Positions 43,738-49,626 of a stretch of DNA of 49,952 nucleotides are shown here, in pieces; position 1 is the first letter of the stretch, and the number at the start of each line of letters is the position of its first letter. Where the stretch lies: positions 1 to 49,952 of IMG/VR virus record IMGVR_UViG_3300010389_000025. The stretch is one strand, 5' to 3'. Origin of the DNA: a virus. Both the position numbers and the translations under genes were made by a program. The notes beneath the pieces are model-generated. The model worked only from the letters and a program-made list of their open reading frames with translations, ran no database searches and was not told the origin of the DNA.

Positions 43738-45387
43738 TTAATTCTTAACTGCACCTGGGGGTTTTGGTGCTGGAATTCCTTTTCTAGTATGATCAGCTAT
43801 CCTTCTTTGATATTCTAAACTCTCAGATGCTGTAGCTACTAGGTCTGCTATTCCTTGCAGTTCTACGCTTCTAGATAATCTATCAACCACATTAAGATTT
43901 TGTCTGGTTATCTCACTGATATCACTGGTCTCTCTTATTTTTTCAAGTAAGGCCCTTCTCTCACTAGCTTCTGATGCCATACCTATCTTGTCTAAATTCT
44001 GAGAATCCCCTGCCATAGTGGCCCTCATTGATTCTAGGATTTCACTTTGATTTTTATTTATATTAACAATAGACATGCTAGATTGTTTAATATCTTCAGT
44101 CCTATTCAGATTATTCGTTCCCGTTCCCGCTATAGTTTCAAAAACCTTAGAGTAGCTTTTAAAATCATCTACAGGATTAGAACCGAAACCAAATAATCCA
44201 CCTATGGTTGACATTATAGGTTGTATGACTGAGGCTATAAGATTAACAATCATTCCAAAAATACCAGCTACCGCAGTTACTATGTTAAAGATTAATGCGA
44301 TTACTGGGGCAAAAGCACCTACAATGTTTAAAATAGAAGCTCCAAAAAATGATAATGATTTTATCATCCTTTCAAAGGAAGGTTGTAATCTTACAACGGC
44401 TTGATTAAACGGAGCCATTACATTCTCTTTAAATACCGCTATTAGCTCGGATATTTTATCAGAACCTTCTTTTTGAGAATTAGCAGATTCTAAGGCTTTT
44501 GTAAATGCTTCATTTAATCCTATAGAAGTAATCCCTAAATCACCTACGAACCCTCTTACTGCTTTAAACTGCCTTTGGGTTATCTCACCAGTCTCACCTA
44601 CCATGGCCCTAGTGCTTCTGTTAGCAGTATCTAAAAGTTCAGCTATAAATGCTGTAGGATCTGATATTTTAGCACCAGAAATTAGTTGATCTAGAAGATC
44701 CTCTATACCTAATCTAGCAACTTGGTTTAGATCCGCACTTGCCGAAGTTAGTTGAGATAAGAAACTTCCTACTTGATCTGCTAATTCTGGTCCTAAGCTG
44801 GCAGCTAACTGGGCTGTTATGTTAGTTACATTTTCTACACCACCAGTCACTCTTAGATCTGCTAAGTTTTTACTTAGCCTAGATACTGCCGAAACTATGC
44901 TATCCCCGGTAGTCTCAAATCGAATAGCAAGATCAGTTACATTTCTTGCAAATTGATCTATAGCGGACTCAGTAGCTCCTCCAACTCCTAGAAGAGATTG
45001 TGATATCTTGAACAGAGCTTCTGTGTTTTGTCCAGATAGTTTAAGTCTAGTCGCAAGGTCTACTAAGTTCTTATTATTACGATTAAAACCTTTAACTCTT
45101 AATTCAGTTAAAGCTTTTGTAGCGTTAGTTAACCCTCCTGTAGTATCTTCTAATGCCCCAATATTACCTTGGAGTACATCTTGAAGTTCTAAGTTAATAA
45201 CTGAGAGTCTTTGATCAACTTTAGTAATATCCTTTAAAGACTCTGCCAGTTTTTCTCCTACTGCGGAGAAAACTACCTTAAGTCCTTCAACGACGGCTAC
45301 AGTTTTACCTAAAGCGGAAACTAGTGATGCTGTTTGGCTTACTTGTCCTAAACTACCTAATGCTCCTATTATGGCGGGAAGTGCCAT
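43738..45387 (-). CDS. Tape measure protein (gp29-like)
   Basis: This 549-aa protein is almost wholly helical with few aromatic or cysteine residues. It has a hydrophobic, potentially membrane-inserting region at about 345-400 (SILNIVGAFAPVIALIFNIV and FGMIVNLIASVIQPI). Its length is close to that of T4 gp29 (590 aa), the tail length ruler. The N-terminal MALPAIIGALGSLGQVSQTA, the amphipathic repeats of NL/TDL type, and the C-terminal coiled region (SERRALLEKIRETSD) fit tape measure proteins. It sits between chaperone-type genes upstream and tube-initiation genes downstream, the usual arrangement. CAGGAG precedes the ATG. It overlaps the 154-aa gene stop by 1 nt (TAATG). Confidence 0.85.
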   Translation of the reverse strand: MALPAIIGALGSLGQVSQTASLVSALGKTVAVVEGLKVVFSAVGEKLAESLKDITKVDQRLSVINLELQDVLQGNIGALEDTTGGLTNATKALTELRVKGFNRNNKNLVDLATRLKLSGQNTEALFKISQSLLGVGGATESAIDQFARNVTDLAIRFETTGDSIVSAVSRLSKNLADLRVTGGVENVTNITAQLAASLGPELADQVGSFLSQLTSASADLNQVARLGIEDLLDQLISGAKISDPTAFIAELLDTANRSTRAMVGETGEITQRQFKAVRGFVGDLGITSIGLNEAFTKALESANSQKEGSDKISELIAVFKENVMAPFNQAVVRLQPSFERMIKSLSFFGASILNIVGAFAPVIALIFNIVTAVAGIFGMIVNLIASVIQPIMSTIGGLFGFGSNPVDDFKSYSKVFETIAGTGTNNLNRTEDIKQSSMSIVNINKNQSEILESMRATMAGDSQNLDKIGMASEASERRALLEKIRETSDISEITRQNLNVVDRLSRSVELQGIADLVATASESLEYQRRIADHTRKGIPAPKPPGAVKN

Positions 45388-45851
45388 TATCTCTTCTCCT
45401 GTAGAATAATTCTATTAAGGTTAGACATCTTACCCGTCGATATAAATGTCCTGTATTTGTCCTTACCCAAGATCAATCCAAACAAGCTGGTGATGTACTT
45501 GTACGAGGCTATCTTAGTGTAATCCTTATATTTATCTAGAGAAGAAAGCAGAACCCTTAAAGATTCACTAGATAGGTGGTCAACCACAAAACAAGAGAAA
45601 AGCTTATTCTTAGTATTCCTATTTGTAAATATTGTGCTAGATGCACCCGTCCTCTGGTTAGATACAGCTAAAGCCATAAAGGGTGATCCATTATAAGAAA
45701 AACTTAACATGTCTCCTGGTGATAAGCTGTTTACTGAAGGTATTCTCTTCTGAATAAGGTCTAGCTCAAGATCAGTAAGCTCCTTAGCCTGTTTAAGCTT
45801 GCTCTGTTCCTGCTCCAGAAAGTTAGGAGATTTTTTTGAATACTTGGGCAT
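45387..45851 (-). CDS. Unknown protein upstream of the tape measure gene (154 aa)
   Basis: This 154-aa basic protein is not recognised. After a charged helical N-terminus (NFLEQEQSKLKQAKELTDLE) it has an SH3-like beta segment, SLSPGDMLSFSYNGSPFMAL. The rest is helical (LRVLLSSLDKYKDYTKIASY) and ends NRIILQEKR. Its overlap with the tape measure start suggests a tail-assembly function, for example a hub assembly factor comparable in position to T4 gp28/gp51. This is inference. It is the first late gene after the plus-strand cassette and has no clear Shine-Dalgarno; an AATAAATA late-promoter-like sequence lies about 20 nt upstream. Confidence 0.8.
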   Translation of the reverse strand: MPKYSKKSPNFLEQEQSKLKQAKELTDLELDLIQKRIPSVNSLSPGDMLSFSYNGSPFMALAVSNQRTGASSTIFTNRNTKNKLFSCFVVDHLSSESLRVLLSSLDKYKDYTKIASYKYITSLFGLILGKDKYRTFISTGKMSNLNRIILQEKR

Positions 45852-45880
45852 GTCAGGGTATAATATATAAATATTTATTA
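45836..45880. promoter_or_regulatory. Divergent promoter region between late tail genes and the early-type cassette
   Basis: On the plus strand TTGAAT (45836-45841) and TATAAT (45859-45864) are separated by 17 nt, a good sigma70-type promoter 23 nt before the ATG at 45887. The same strand has TATAAATA (45866-45873), identical to the T4 late consensus. On the minus strand AATAAATA (45879-45872) is one mismatch from that consensus and precedes the 154-aa gene. Confidence 0.6.
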
Positions 45881-45886
45881 ATCCTG

Positions 45887-46159
45887 ATGAGCATTGATAG
45901 TTATGAAATTATAGAGTTTATAGATTTACTAGATTATACATTTAGTGATAAGTTTGTTGATAAATGGAGATATAGGTTCTCTACTGCATTTATTAAGAAG
46001 TTTCAGTATAAGCTATTGAAGACTGTTTCTGATAAGAAACCTTTAAAGAAGAAAAGCCTGTATCACTATATGACAAAGAAGTGTAAGTATGCTGACGAAC
46101 AAGTCCAGGACTTCTTTGAGGCTATTGAGATCGAGATCTACTATCCGCTGGTGATGTGA
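45887..46159 (+). CDS. Small unknown protein, first gene of the plus-strand replication cassette (90 aa)
   Basis: I choose the ATG at 45887 (MSIDSYEIIEFIDLLDYTFS); an in-frame upstream TTG would lie within the promoter. The 90-aa product has acidic ends and a basic centre with many aromatic residues (KFVDKWRYRFSTAFIKKFQY) and is probably helical. No family is recognised. Its stop overlaps the nuclease ATG by 1 nt (TGATG), so the three plus-strand genes form an operon. A DNA-binding or replication accessory role is guessed from company only. No obvious Shine-Dalgarno is seen. Confidence 0.78.
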   Translation: MSIDSYEIIEFIDLLDYTFSDKFVDKWRYRFSTAFIKKFQYKLLKTVSDKKPLKKKSLYHYMTKKCKYADEQVQDFFEAIEIEIYYPLVM

Positions 46160-46935
46160 TGTTTTGTGATACCATAAGTAATTCCAAGCGTGAAACCTTC
46201 CGTCAGTGTCGGCTAAAGTATAAATATAACTATGTGAACCGTTACGAAGACACTGATCCTGGGAACACTGGTGCCTTACACTTCGGATCCTTTATCCACG
46301 AAGTCTTTGAGCACAGTGTTAATGCCGCTACGATTGACCAGCTTTGGGCAAAGGCTAATGAAATAAAAGATAAGTATAGCTTCCCAGAGAAATATAACAA
46401 AGACATAGAGAAGTGCTTCAAGAACTTCCTTCGGTTCAATGCCCAGCTTCCAAAGGAGTCTATTGTCGAGCACCATTTCGCAGAGGAGATTGCCGATGGA
46501 ATCAAACATGAGGGATATATTGACAGGATTATCAAAGCACCAACAGGAGATATTCTTGTCGTGGATTACAAGACATCCAGAAGAGAGAAGACCAAATTCG
46601 AACTCTTCAATGATAGCCAAGGGAAATCTTATGTCTACGCAGCACACAAGCTTACGGGTGTCCCTATACGAAACATTACCTTCGCCCACTATTATCCTCT
46701 ATCAAACAATCTTGTCGCAGCTACCTACACCGAGGCGACTATTAGGCAACACATTAAGTCTGTTGTAGATGATGTCTGGACCATCCGTAAGTGTAAGTCC
46801 GATGACCTCTACCCACAGAAGAACGATTTCTGCAACTGGTGTTCTTACAAATCCATCTGCCCACTCTATAATGATCCAGAGATCGTCAAGGGACGGCTCG
46901 ATGAGTGTAAGACAAGACCAAGACGCAAGAAATGA
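46159..46935 (+). CDS. PD-(D/E)XK nuclease with Fe-S cluster motif (Cas4/RecB-like)
   Basis: This 258-aa protein starts at ATG 46159. The RecB-family nuclease motifs are visible: H47 in FGSFIHEVFE, D122 in GYIDRI, D136-x-K138 in VVDYKTS, and Q154-GKS-Y158. Four cysteines, C17 and C225-x2-C228-x5-C234, are placed as in Cas4 and AddB enzymes, where they hold a 4Fe-4S cluster. It is expected to be an exonuclease acting on single-stranded or resected DNA in phage replication or recombination. The start overlaps the upstream stop and the stop overlaps the primase ATG (ATGA), so translation is coupled. GC content is higher than in the flanking late genes. Confidence 0.92.
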   Translation: MFCDTISNSKRETFRQCRLKYKYNYVNRYEDTDPGNTGALHFGSFIHEVFEHSVNAATIDQLWAKANEIKDKYSFPEKYNKDIEKCFKNFLRFNAQLPKESIVEHHFAEEIADGIKHEGYIDRIIKAPTGDILVVDYKTSRREKTKFELFNDSQGKSYVYAAHKLTGVPIRNITFAHYYPLSNNLVAATYTEATIRQHIKSVVDDVWTIRKCKSDDLYPQKNDFCNWCSYKSICPLYNDPEIVKGRLDECKTRPRRKK

Positions 46936-47855
46936 TACGGGACTGGGTACAGAGCAACATCAAGGAAGGACGCCTACAAAGCGGTGGTCGTGAGTGGGTA
47001 TGCAACTCCGTAATCGACACCTCTGATTACAAGCGCCACATGTCCGTCAACCTTGAGACTGGCCTGTGGCAATGCTTCAAGAGCGGTGAGACTGGTAATT
47101 TTTACCAACTTGTGTCCATCATTCGTGGTGTACCTTATCACCGTGGCAAGGAGATCTTCTACAGCTACTGCATCGAGAACGGTCAACTACCAGAACAAGA
47201 GGAGGCCAAGATTGTCCTCCCTGAAATCAAGAGTTTAGAGAATGAAGAATTCAAGCAGATCGAAGAGAACAGCGCAGCAGATCTTTATGTCCGTGGTAGG
47301 ATGCTTAACCCTGCTCGGTTCTATTACGCTGACTCTGGGCGATACGCAGGCAGGCTCATTATCCCCTTTGAAGATGAGCATGGACTCTTCTACTTCACTG
47401 CCAGAGCCCTCGGAGACAGAACTCCAAAGTATCTCAATCCCCCCTCCGAAGCAGGTGTCAAGTCCTCCCATGTCCTCCTCCCCTACGACACAGAGAGTAC
47501 CGATCCACTCTTCATCACAGAAGGTGCTTTTGACGCTATCGCCCTTAAGGAATCAGGACTTAATGCTACCTGTACCAATGGGTGCTCCCCTTCTCTCATC
47601 CAGATGCGATATCTGCGTGACTATCGAGGTCCAATCGTCGTTGCCTATGACAATGATGACGCAGGTAGAGAGGGACTAGAAAGGTTCGAGCGTCTACGCA
47701 AGCGTTGCTGTATGCCCACCTTCAACCATGTCTTCCCTCCTGATGGATACAAGGACTGGAATGAACTGCTGATGGAAGGTGAGCAGATTACAGCAGCTTG
47801 TGCTTCTGAGTACAAGCCCTACGACTGGTCTAACGCTATTCTCAGCGCACTGTGA
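46932..47855 (+). CDS. DNA primase (TOPRIM, DnaG/T4 gp61-type)
   Basis: This 307-aa protein has a central/C-terminal TOPRIM domain: FITEGAFDAIAL with E197, then VVAYDNDDAGREG with D240/D242, then KDWNELL. These residues bind the metals that catalyse RNA primer synthesis. The region KYLNPPS before TOPRIM is typical of DnaG-like primases. The N-terminal segment EWVCNSVIDTSDYKRHMSVN to LWQCFKSGETGN looks like a degenerate zinc-binding DNA-recognition domain; only C24, H36 and C48 remain of a four-ligand site. T4 gp61 is 342 aa. Its 3' end overlaps the converging 305-aa gene by 14 nt. Confidence 0.93.
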   Translation: MIRDWVQSNIKEGRLQSGGREWVCNSVIDTSDYKRHMSVNLETGLWQCFKSGETGNFYQLVSIIRGVPYHRGKEIFYSYCIENGQLPEQEEAKIVLPEIKSLENEEFKQIEENSAADLYVRGRMLNPARFYYADSGRYAGRLIIPFEDEHGLFYFTARALGDRTPKYLNPPSEAGVKSSHVLLPYDTESTDPLFITEGAFDAIALKESGLNATCTNGCSPSLIQMRYLRDYRGPIVVAYDNDDAGREGLERFERLRKRCCMPTFNHVFPPDGYKDWNELLMEGEQITAACASEYKPYDWSNAILSAL

Positions 47856-48759
47856 AGTACATCATCGGTGAGATGATTGTCTCATTCAGCAAGGTGTACT
47901 TAGCCTCTACAGAGTAGGTTCCTGTTCCTGAACCAAGATCGGCAATACCTGAGGTTAGAACTGCGGTATCAAAGCTTAATAACATTGTGTTATCAGAAGT
48001 AACCTCTACCAAACCTACGGTATCCTTGTAACCCGATACTTCAACTCTAGCAGGAAGGTTGGAGTCTTCGTTGTGCTTGAGGATTCTGAACTGAGCATCC
48101 TTGAGGATACCTGTGCTTAGAGTGTTCTTGACGCTCTGGTCGATGTTACGATTCATAACCGTGATCTCGGTAGGAACCTTGAGATCAATTACTTCACCAA
48201 GTCTGATCTTGTTAGGGGTTAGGCTTGTTTTTGATTTAAGAAGTAAGGGTTCGGTAAGGGATATAAGGCTATCTTGGAATAGCTTAAGTTCGTGGATGAA
48301 GATAGTCCAATCAGAGGCGGCTGTCAATTTGACAGTCCATACATCAATGTAGCTTCCAGTTGAGCTTGCCTGATTGCTAATTACATTACCAAGCCTATCT
48401 TCACCAGTTACGCTTTGGGTTCCATCAAGGACTACAGCGTATTGACCAGTTCCGGTCTTATAAATATAAGATTGTTGTGCTGCATCTGTAGTATACAGAG
48501 ATTCGTCTAATATTTCACCAGCATCAGCGGTCCAGCGGAATCTAACAGAAGAAGCAGCCTCATCGGAGATTAGCTGAGTGCTGCTATCTAGAATTGAGCT
48601 AGGAGAAGTGTTCTGAGACTTATAAAAAAGGCTTACAGAACTGATATCGTAAAGGTCCTGAAAGCTACCGTTGTTTAGAAAACTAGCCCTTAGGACATTT
48701 CTGCTTAGGGTTCCTGGATGATTATGTCTTTCAACGACCTCTATTCCGTTTAGATTCAT
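47842..48759 (-). CDS. Beta-rich protein of unknown function, probably virion-associated (305 aa)
   Basis: This 305-aa protein is Ser/Thr/Val-rich and predicted all-beta. Its C-terminal segment, GIADLGSGTGTYSVEAKYTL then NETIISPMMYFTVR, resembles an Ig-like sandwich. A strand SVSLFYKSQNTSPSS and the segment DVWTVKLTAASDWTIFIHEL also suggest Ig/fibronectin-type folds. No family is recognised. The start lies inside the end of the frameshift ORF downstream of gp26 (29-nt overlap), so it belongs to the same late operon. It converges on the primase with a 14-nt overlap and no visible terminator between them. Confidence 0.82.
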   Translation of the reverse strand: MNLNGIEVVERHNHPGTLSRNVLRASFLNNGSFQDLYDISSVSLFYKSQNTSPSSILDSSTQLISDEAASSVRFRWTADAGEILDESLYTTDAAQQSYIYKTGTGQYAVVLDGTQSVTGEDRLGNVISNQASSTGSYIDVWTVKLTAASDWTIFIHELKLFQDSLISLTEPLLLKSKTSLTPNKIRLGEVIDLKVPTEITVMNRNIDQSVKNTLSTGILKDAQFRILKHNEDSNLPARVEVSGYKDTVGLVEVTSDNTMLLSFDTAVLTSGIADLGSGTGTYSVEAKYTLLNETIISPMMYFTVR

Positions 48760-48936
48760 TTATGTATTCCTCTTGTGCCATGAGTTCTTCTTTCAAGAAC
48801 CCTAAAAAGAAGCTGCGTTCCTGCCTATCCATGCCCTTTACATCGGAATAGGAGAGTTTACATCTTCTAGTTAATATATAGGCTTCTCTAAACAGATTTT
48901 CTAGATTGTTTTCCGTTAGCTCGCTGAGAAAAAATT
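48731..48936 (-). CDS. -1 frame extension of the gp26-like chaperone (tail chaperone 'T' part)
   Basis: In the -1 frame relative to gp26 an ORF opens exactly at the slippery sequence (a TAA lies immediately upstream in that frame). It runs 65 codons past the slip, LSELTENNLENLFREAYILT to NESKRNRGR, before TGA. It has no ATG, GTG or TTG until Met at 48832, which would remove the first half. The segment LSYSDVKGMDRQERSFFLGF is compact and helix-like, as in short downstream parts of other phage tail chaperones. The predicted fusion with gp26 is about 298 aa. Position upstream of the tape measure gene, albeit with the plus-strand cassette between, agrees with a G/GT-type chaperone pair. Confidence 0.8.
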
Positions 48937-49626
48937 TTTATTTAGAGGCAACTCCATCACTGAGTCGTGTTGACAGTGAGAACAAAGGACTCGGATCTCA
49001 GTGGTTAACCCGTATCCTTCACACATTACAGTGGAGAGCATCTTATTAATATCTCCAGCAGGCAGTCTATGAATAACCTTTTGGATCACCATGTCATTGT
49101 CTATGCCGTCAATGCTTGTAATGAACCTCCAGAGGTTATCCATCAGAACCTCAGAATCACCAATATACTTCTCGTCGTTTACAGATGCGAGCTTAACGAC
49201 AGCCTTTTTCTTACACATAGGTAGTTCGACCTCAACCTCTCTACCTAGATCCTCCATTGATACTACAGGCATATCATTAAGATCAATGGATATTCTATTC
49301 TCCTGCTTGCAGGAAGGACATCCTACGATAAACTTGTACACTGATCCAAAAGATAACTCCCTGAGTTTGAACAGGAGGTAGATTTTGTCTACAAGGAGGA
49401 TATCAGACTTATCAATGTCAGTAACACAATTGTCTAATAGAACCATGGAAGGATCCACACCTTTCTTAGCCAGAGACAGAATCTGCTTCTCTTCCTCAAA
49501 GGTAATAGGTCTAAGGGTTGCCTCACTACCTGAGGGTAAGGTTACTACATTCTTTGCATTGTAGGGCATATCTGATAAGATATCCTCTACCATCTGATCA
49601 ACTGTTTTCTTCTTTTGTTCTGCCAT
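48916..49626 (-). CDS. gp26: gp26-like baseplate/tail assembly protein (T4_baseplate family) with zinc-type cysteines
   Basis: This 236-aa protein matches the T4 gp26 / T4_baseplate family. N-terminal ATLRPITFEEEKQILSLAKK is followed by LDNCVTDID and DKIYLLFKLRELSFGSVYKF. Two CxxC knuckles (C103/C106 in CPSCK, C215/C218 in CSHCQ) would bind one zinc. T4 gp26 is counted with baseplate hub assembly. Here the last codons (LNKNFFSAS-stop) contain AAATTTTTTC, a tandem -1 slippery site, and a GGAG lies 14 nt upstream of it. The product could therefore be made both alone and as a longer fusion, like the lambda G and G-T chaperones. The ribosome binding site is GGAG, 8 nt before the ATG. Confidence 0.9.
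   Translation of the reverse strand: MAEQKKKTVDQMVEDILSDMPYNAKNVVTLPSGSEATLRPITFEEEKQILSLAKKGVDPSMVLLDNCVTDIDKSDILLVDKIYLLFKLRELSFGSVYKFIVGCPSCKQENRISIDLNDMPVVSMEDLGREVEVELPMCKKKAVVKLASVNDEKYIGDSEVLMDNLWRFITSIDGIDNDMVIQKVIHRLPAGDINKMLSTVMCEGYGLTTEIRVLCSHCQHDSVMELPLNKNFFSAS
48928..48937 (-). other. Programmed -1 ribosomal frameshift site
   Basis: Read on the minus strand in the gp26 frame the bases are A-AAT-TTT-TTC. Both A-AAT-TTT and T-TTT-TTC fit the X-XXY-YYZ rule. A Shine-Dalgarno-like GGAG (48952-48955) lies 14 nt upstream, a known stimulator spacing for -1 shifts in bacteria. The gp26 stop comes four codons later. I see no strong downstream hairpin. Confidence 0.78.

Follow-up and report, generated by a model that had tools for sequence, protein, structure and literature searches.

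The window, a stretch of 49,952 nucleotides from IMG/VR record IMGVR_UViG_3300010389_000025, lies in a myovirus, as seen from its homologues of phage major head, tail sheath, head-tail adaptor and gp25 proteins. Near one end is a gene for a gp26-like protein, the features of which are collected in Table 1. The match of the protein to PF12322 has an E value of 5.7e-18 and a score of 65.8 bits, above the curated Pfam cut-off of 24.5, and covers most of the length of the profile (7-218 of 219). The protein also matches PHROG 150 (baseplate hub, E = 2.6e-20), and an AF2 model of it has a pLDDT of 85.8. An assignment to gp26 had been made in an earlier note from the sequence alone, and it is borne out by membership in the PF12322 family.

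Table 1. Features in and around the gp26-like gene, in positions of the window
Feature	Position	Strand	Remarks
gp26-like gene (TAC-N, short product, 236 aa)	48916..49626	-	PF12322 T4_baseplate and PHROG 150
GGAG	48952..48955	-	14 nt before AAATTTT; might act as an internal Shine-Dalgarno stimulator
Slippery heptamer A_AAU_UUU (AAATTTT)	48937-48931	-	in X_XXY_YYZ register; kept in 9/10 loci, G_GGU_UUU in L023
Overlapping slippery heptamer U_UUU_UUC (TTTTTTC)	48934-48928	-	in X_XXY_YYZ register; also in P-SSM2, S-PM2, phiW-14, RaK2, Atu_ph07
-1-frame extension (T-like domain, TAC-C), 68 codons and TGA	48731..48937	-	phrog_634 matches; hhalign to gp51 C-terminus
GAAGCCTATATA, 12-nt island	48875..48886	-	invariant in ten loci; 51 or 54 nt 3' of heptamer start
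Next gene, 305 aa	47842..48759	-	overlaps end of -1 frame; no family match
154-aa gene directly before putative tape measure	45387-45851	-	sub-threshold TAC-family matches
Possible tape measure protein, 549 aa	43738..45387	-	long hydrophobic stretch read from translation; no family match; tentative

On the minus strand the gp26-like gene ends with ...AAT AAA AAT TTT TTC TCA GCG AGC TAA. Reading of this sequence confirms the two overlapping, in-frame heptamers described in the earlier note, and a slip at either A_AAU_UUU or U_UUU_UUC gives the identical product of 298 aa, in agreement with the predicted length of the fusion. The -1 frame had been described as sealed upstream, open for a long stretch and free of early starts, and so it is: a TAA directly upstream closes it in the window, 68 codons follow at 48937-48734 up to the TGA at 48733-48731, and the first ATG, GTG or TTG is codon 36. 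The GGAG pointed out upstream of the site is present at 48955-48952, and its conservation does not extend beyond the nearest relatives. The window has 39 ORFs of 100 aa or longer, and the gp26-like gene is the only one in which an in-frame heptamer in the overlap goes together with a -1 extension of 40 codons or more.

With only the gp26 core as the query, two close relatives were retrieved, L001 (82% identity) and L002 (56% identity), both of which carry the same AAAAATTTTTTCTCA as the window and a homologous -1 frame. Additional loci came from searches with the extension, and removal of duplicates left ten loci in six clades (window/L001; L002/L013; L023; L015/L032; L024/L028; L030). A comparison of the region downstream of gp26 in relatives had been proposed from the start, and in all ten distinct loci the slippery site and the homologous -1 frame are kept, with identities of 30-82% in the cores and 35-95% in the extensions. 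Given that extension peptides were used as queries, amino-acid conservation is partly selected by the search; L001 and L002, retrieved with the core, are free of this bias, and codon choice should escape it, with patterns described as degenerate back-translations. Another locus, L033, was rejected as a family member, being a false positive with an unrelated frame. A 130.6-kb contig with the member L016/L034, filed as the single-cell genome of Prochlorococcus sp. AG-409-P03, carries this phage-type gene, and the record probably contains a phage genome.

Codon choice at the site stands out from that in the rest of the gene. When clade representatives are compared at the residues that they share, 0.41 of the codons in the core and 0.44 of those in the extension are identical, where codon usage would predict 0.39; because these fractions are so close to the expectation, synonymous sites are saturated between clades. 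At the site, the codons AAT and TTT never vary among the loci in which those residues are present, and the preceding base always completes the X triplet. The chance of such agreement is about 6e-5, taken as the product of the per-locus chances for six representatives. In L023 the site reads CAG GGT TTT TTC, such that AAAUUUU has become GGGUUUU with all three X bases replaced by G. The heptamer rule is therefore preserved there, and the motif has changed as a unit. Conserved, in frame and close to where the short frame ends, the slippery heptamer is thus placed as in systems of the G/GT type.

Beyond the gp26 stop, the -1 frame is, on its substitution rates, under protein-level selection. The dN/dS values for four pairs are about 0.17, 0.07, 0.08 and 0.18, and for the pair of the window and L001 dN is 0.128 and dS 0.757. 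With these ratios and no common start, the long form would add a selected domain that is reached by the shift alone, as expected of a G/GT-type gene. The extension is predicted to fold as a confident helical domain (pLDDT 90). No relative of the core or of the extension was found among solved structures, and a Foldseek search with the extension gave no significant match, with the P-HM1 'Gp51' and the ZZ1 hub assembly catalyst among the non-significant ones.

The extension can be related to the tail of a known long-form chaperone, with modest strength. T4 has two PF12322 genes, for gp26 and for gp51 (residues 1-201), the latter followed by a 48-aa tail. In hhalign comparisons the profile of the window-family extension matches the gp51 C-terminus (E = 3.5e-5), the cyanophage -1 frame behind gp26 (E = 8e-6) and the T domain that cyanobacteria carry in frame behind PF12322 (E = 6.8e-7), and each of the three scores is higher than any from 30 column-shuffled controls. 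The cyanophage extension in turn has a strong hhalign match to the gp51 tail (97%, E = 5e-11). The profile search that the earlier note had suggested for the extension also yields weak matches to phrog_634, 'baseplate hub assembly catalyst', for all six members scanned (best E = 0.0053), and T4 gp51 itself matches PHROG 634. Five cyanobacterial PF12322 ORFs (L101-L105) have no frameshift: a T-like domain follows the FF junction directly, in the same frame.

The number of PF12322 copies tends to go with the way in which the tail is encoded. Two copies are found in T4, fHe-Yen9-01, Tonic, KFS-EC, 50AhydR13PP, Muldoon and vB_KpnM_05F, and Campylobacter phage CP220 has two PF12322 matches; one copy is found in P-SSM2, S-PM2, HTVC008M, phiW-14, RaK2, Vi01, SP-15, LIS04, GXN1 and Atu_ph07. 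Single-copy phages mostly have a tail in a shifted frame, and in two-copy phages of the T4 type the tail is fused on gp51. An in-frame U_UUU_UUY at the gene end, followed by a T-like -1 frame, occurs in P-SSM2, S-PM2, HTVC008M, phiW-14, RaK2 and Atu_ph07, and Vi01 has a -1 frame with no canonical heptamer. A second full PF12322 copy with a C-terminal tail, as in the two-gene type of T4, was not found in the window fragment or in relatives of 112 kb and 130 kb, genomes that may be incomplete and that each hold one copy. The point made in the earlier note that gene 26 of T4 is not known to have such a shift agrees with these data, in that T4 uses two genes.

An overlapping tail in the +1 frame is present in SP-15, LIS04, GXN1, L003, L004, L010 and Mel-JY01. 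The profile of the window-family extension does not match the +1-frame tails of SP-15-like phages in hhalign (10% probability). The loci with +1-frame tails L003, L004, L006, L008, L009, L010 and L017 are gp26 relatives of SP-15, LIS04, GXN1, Mel-JY01 and others. Internal ATGs lie in the overlap of these +1-frame relatives, such that a separate start is possible.

The gp26-like gene is, very probably, a G/GT-type tail assembly chaperone gene decoded by programmed -1 ribosomal frameshifting into a short gp26 and a long gp26-T, equivalent to T4 gp26 and gp51. Most ribosomes would stop at the gp26 stop codon to give the 236-aa short form, and for a minority a slip of one base backwards at A_AAU_UUU/U_UUU_UUC, immediately ahead of the stop, would yield the 298-aa form with its helical, T-like domain. 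By analogy to lambda G/GT, the tape measure protein would be coated by many copies of the short form and few of the long one, which would recruit tail tube subunits and then leave; T4 would make the equivalent pair from genes 26 and 51. The slippage itself, its efficiency and the action of the chaperone on the tape measure protein are what we infer from the site, its conservation, the selection on the -1 frame and the similarity to the gp51 tail. The earlier note had likewise read the gene as a tail chaperone with a fused C-terminal part, and comparative evidence supports it by way of site conservation, selection and likeness to the gp51 tail. Counting against the chaperone and frameshift reading are the absence of a common RNA fold, the genes that intervene before the putative tape measure gene, and the modest strength of the direct match to the gp51 tail.

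The frameshift could be real and its products be parts of the baseplate hub or hub assembly factors, with another gene, such as the 154-aa gene, as the chaperone. Databases do label the family as baseplate hub, and the 154-aa gene matches TAC families weakly (Pfam E = 0.011, PHROG E = 0.038), but these matches span about 30 residues, fall below the cut-off and come with no short and long pair for that gene. Genomic position bears on the same question. The claim that the chaperone gene precedes the tape measure gene holds only in part in the window, where the gp26-like gene is separated from a tape measure gene, itself only inferred, by further genes and by a replication block that runs in the opposite direction. 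In LIS04 the next gene is annotated as tape measure. The gp26-T gene lies between the tail tube gene and the annotated tail or tape measure gene in both SP-15 and LIS04, and between the tail tube gene and a very long gene in Mel-JY01, which argues against this alternative, an unlikely one. In the window, plus-strand replication genes (exonuclease, primase) at 45836-47855 stand between the minus-strand tail genes.

A second alternative to programmed frameshifting is that the -1 frame forms a small gene by itself, read from its own start (the ATG at codon 36 or a non-standard codon) or by stop-start coupling. In P-SSM2 and S-PM2 an ATG lies 5 nt beyond the gp26 stop, and a 53-aa cyanophage protein is annotated as Gp51; re-initiation may operate in some relatives. 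In the window family, however, there is no common start, given that start codons in the first 35 codons of the -1 frame are absent or unshared among the loci and that first starts fall at codons 36, 36, 36, 12 (TTG), 27 (GTG) and others. Initiation at codon 36 would lose the most conserved half of the extension, and the window frame is sealed by the TAA just upstream, so that a separate gene is improbable. The shifted product might also arise by RNA polymerase slippage on the A5T6 run, with the same protein as the outcome. This is an improbable source, since the run has only six T and slippage on T would need no X triplet, yet XXX is intact in ten of ten loci, including the one where AAA has become GGG. 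A chance heptamer before a chance open frame has nothing more in its favor than an AT-rich gene end, and can be dismissed in light of the conservation in ten loci, a dN/dS well below 1 and the uniqueness of the combination among the genes of the window.

The programmed -1 frameshift of lambda G/GT (Levin 1993; Xu 2004) is reviewed in PMC5009743, in which the G-T frameshift is described as widely conserved with T4 as an exception, and PMC3004832 gives hub assembly chaperone as the role of T4 gp26 and gp51. A passage of PMC10885494, citing Vladimirov et al. (2022, Virology 566:9-15), states that some T4-like phages instead have a short gene and a longer fused gene. Poly-T is described in a passage of PMC12846349 that cites the same work as a known -1 frameshift signal in TAC-N genes of T4-like phages. 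On our reading, taken from the copy-number evidence, the genes meant in these passages are 26 and 51. Because chaperone identity and poly-T -1 sites are, according to these passages, already reported for T4-like phages, the window gene is a further case of a known scheme, with a tandem site.

The window gene can be compared to several such systems. It shares with T4-like gp26/gp51 the PF12322 core, a related C-terminal tail and short and long forms, but T4 and the relatives tested use two genes, whereas the window lineage has one gene with the tandem A_AAU_UUU/U_UUU_UUC. With lambda G/GT it shares a short form and a minor -1 fusion with a C-terminal T part, with the shift near the end of the short frame; the slip site is different, the gp26 core has two Cys pairs, and sequence kinship is not expected. 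The TAC locus of Pakpunavirus and Vandenendeviridae is similar in that a -1 frameshift was inferred from a conserved poly-T and an open -1 frame, but it belongs to other phage families and has the site GTTTTT (PMC12846349). The two-gene chaperone of Bacillus phage 0305phi8-36 recapitulates G/GT without a frameshift, like T4, and so differs from the window gene, which would be frameshifted (PMC2147016).

That a set of T4-superfamily phages has a single gp26 and a T domain in a shifted frame, and T4 relatives have two genes, matters for the exception made of T4. It points to gp51 as the long form, released from frameshifting by gene duplication. Annotations miss the -1 part or name it as a separate gene, and the 'baseplate hub' labels on gp26 and gp51 likely hide a chaperone pair.

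Besides the slippery site, the sole fully codon-frozen run among about 54 invariant residues is GAA GCC TAT ATA in the -1 frame, or GAAGCCTATATA, which is invariant in the window and in L001, L002, L013, L015, L023, L024, L028, L030 and L032. The chance of this codon agreement is 8.8e-8 for six representatives, with independence assumed. As GAAGCCTATATA occurs only once in the window, and only once in each of the 112-kb and 130-kb relatives, it was ruled out as a general late promoter. RNAalifold gave no pairs for a common structure downstream of the site, single-sequence folds of the downstream region were mixed (z from +1.2 to -3.1), and an Rfam search gave no match. Conservation of GAAGCCTATATA is apparently new, and a role as a frameshift signal is one possibility.

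A different set of loci may use a similar arrangement. In 20 of 20 cyanobacterial loci (L123-L142), DUF6760 is encoded in the -1 frame relative to an upstream gene, which has NNG GGG GAR at its stop or shortly ahead of it, and an early start codon in the DUF6760 frame is usually absent from the 20 loci inspected. Judging by their gene content, the loci are probably contractile injection systems, and two papers on such systems make no mention of frameshifting. They may be candidates, apparently new, for the same short and long chaperone scheme by a programmed -1 shift. It is a tentative and rather doubtful proposal, taken as a whole, that GAAGCCTATATA is an unrecognised, sequence-specific signal that tunes frameshifting without a stable RNA structure, and that cyanobacterial contractile injection systems use the short and long scheme too, through a -1 shift at G_GGG_GAR and with DUF6760 in the role of the T part. 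At one DUF6760 locus, the product of the upstream gene has a PHROG match to a tail assembly chaperone (E = 1e-4).
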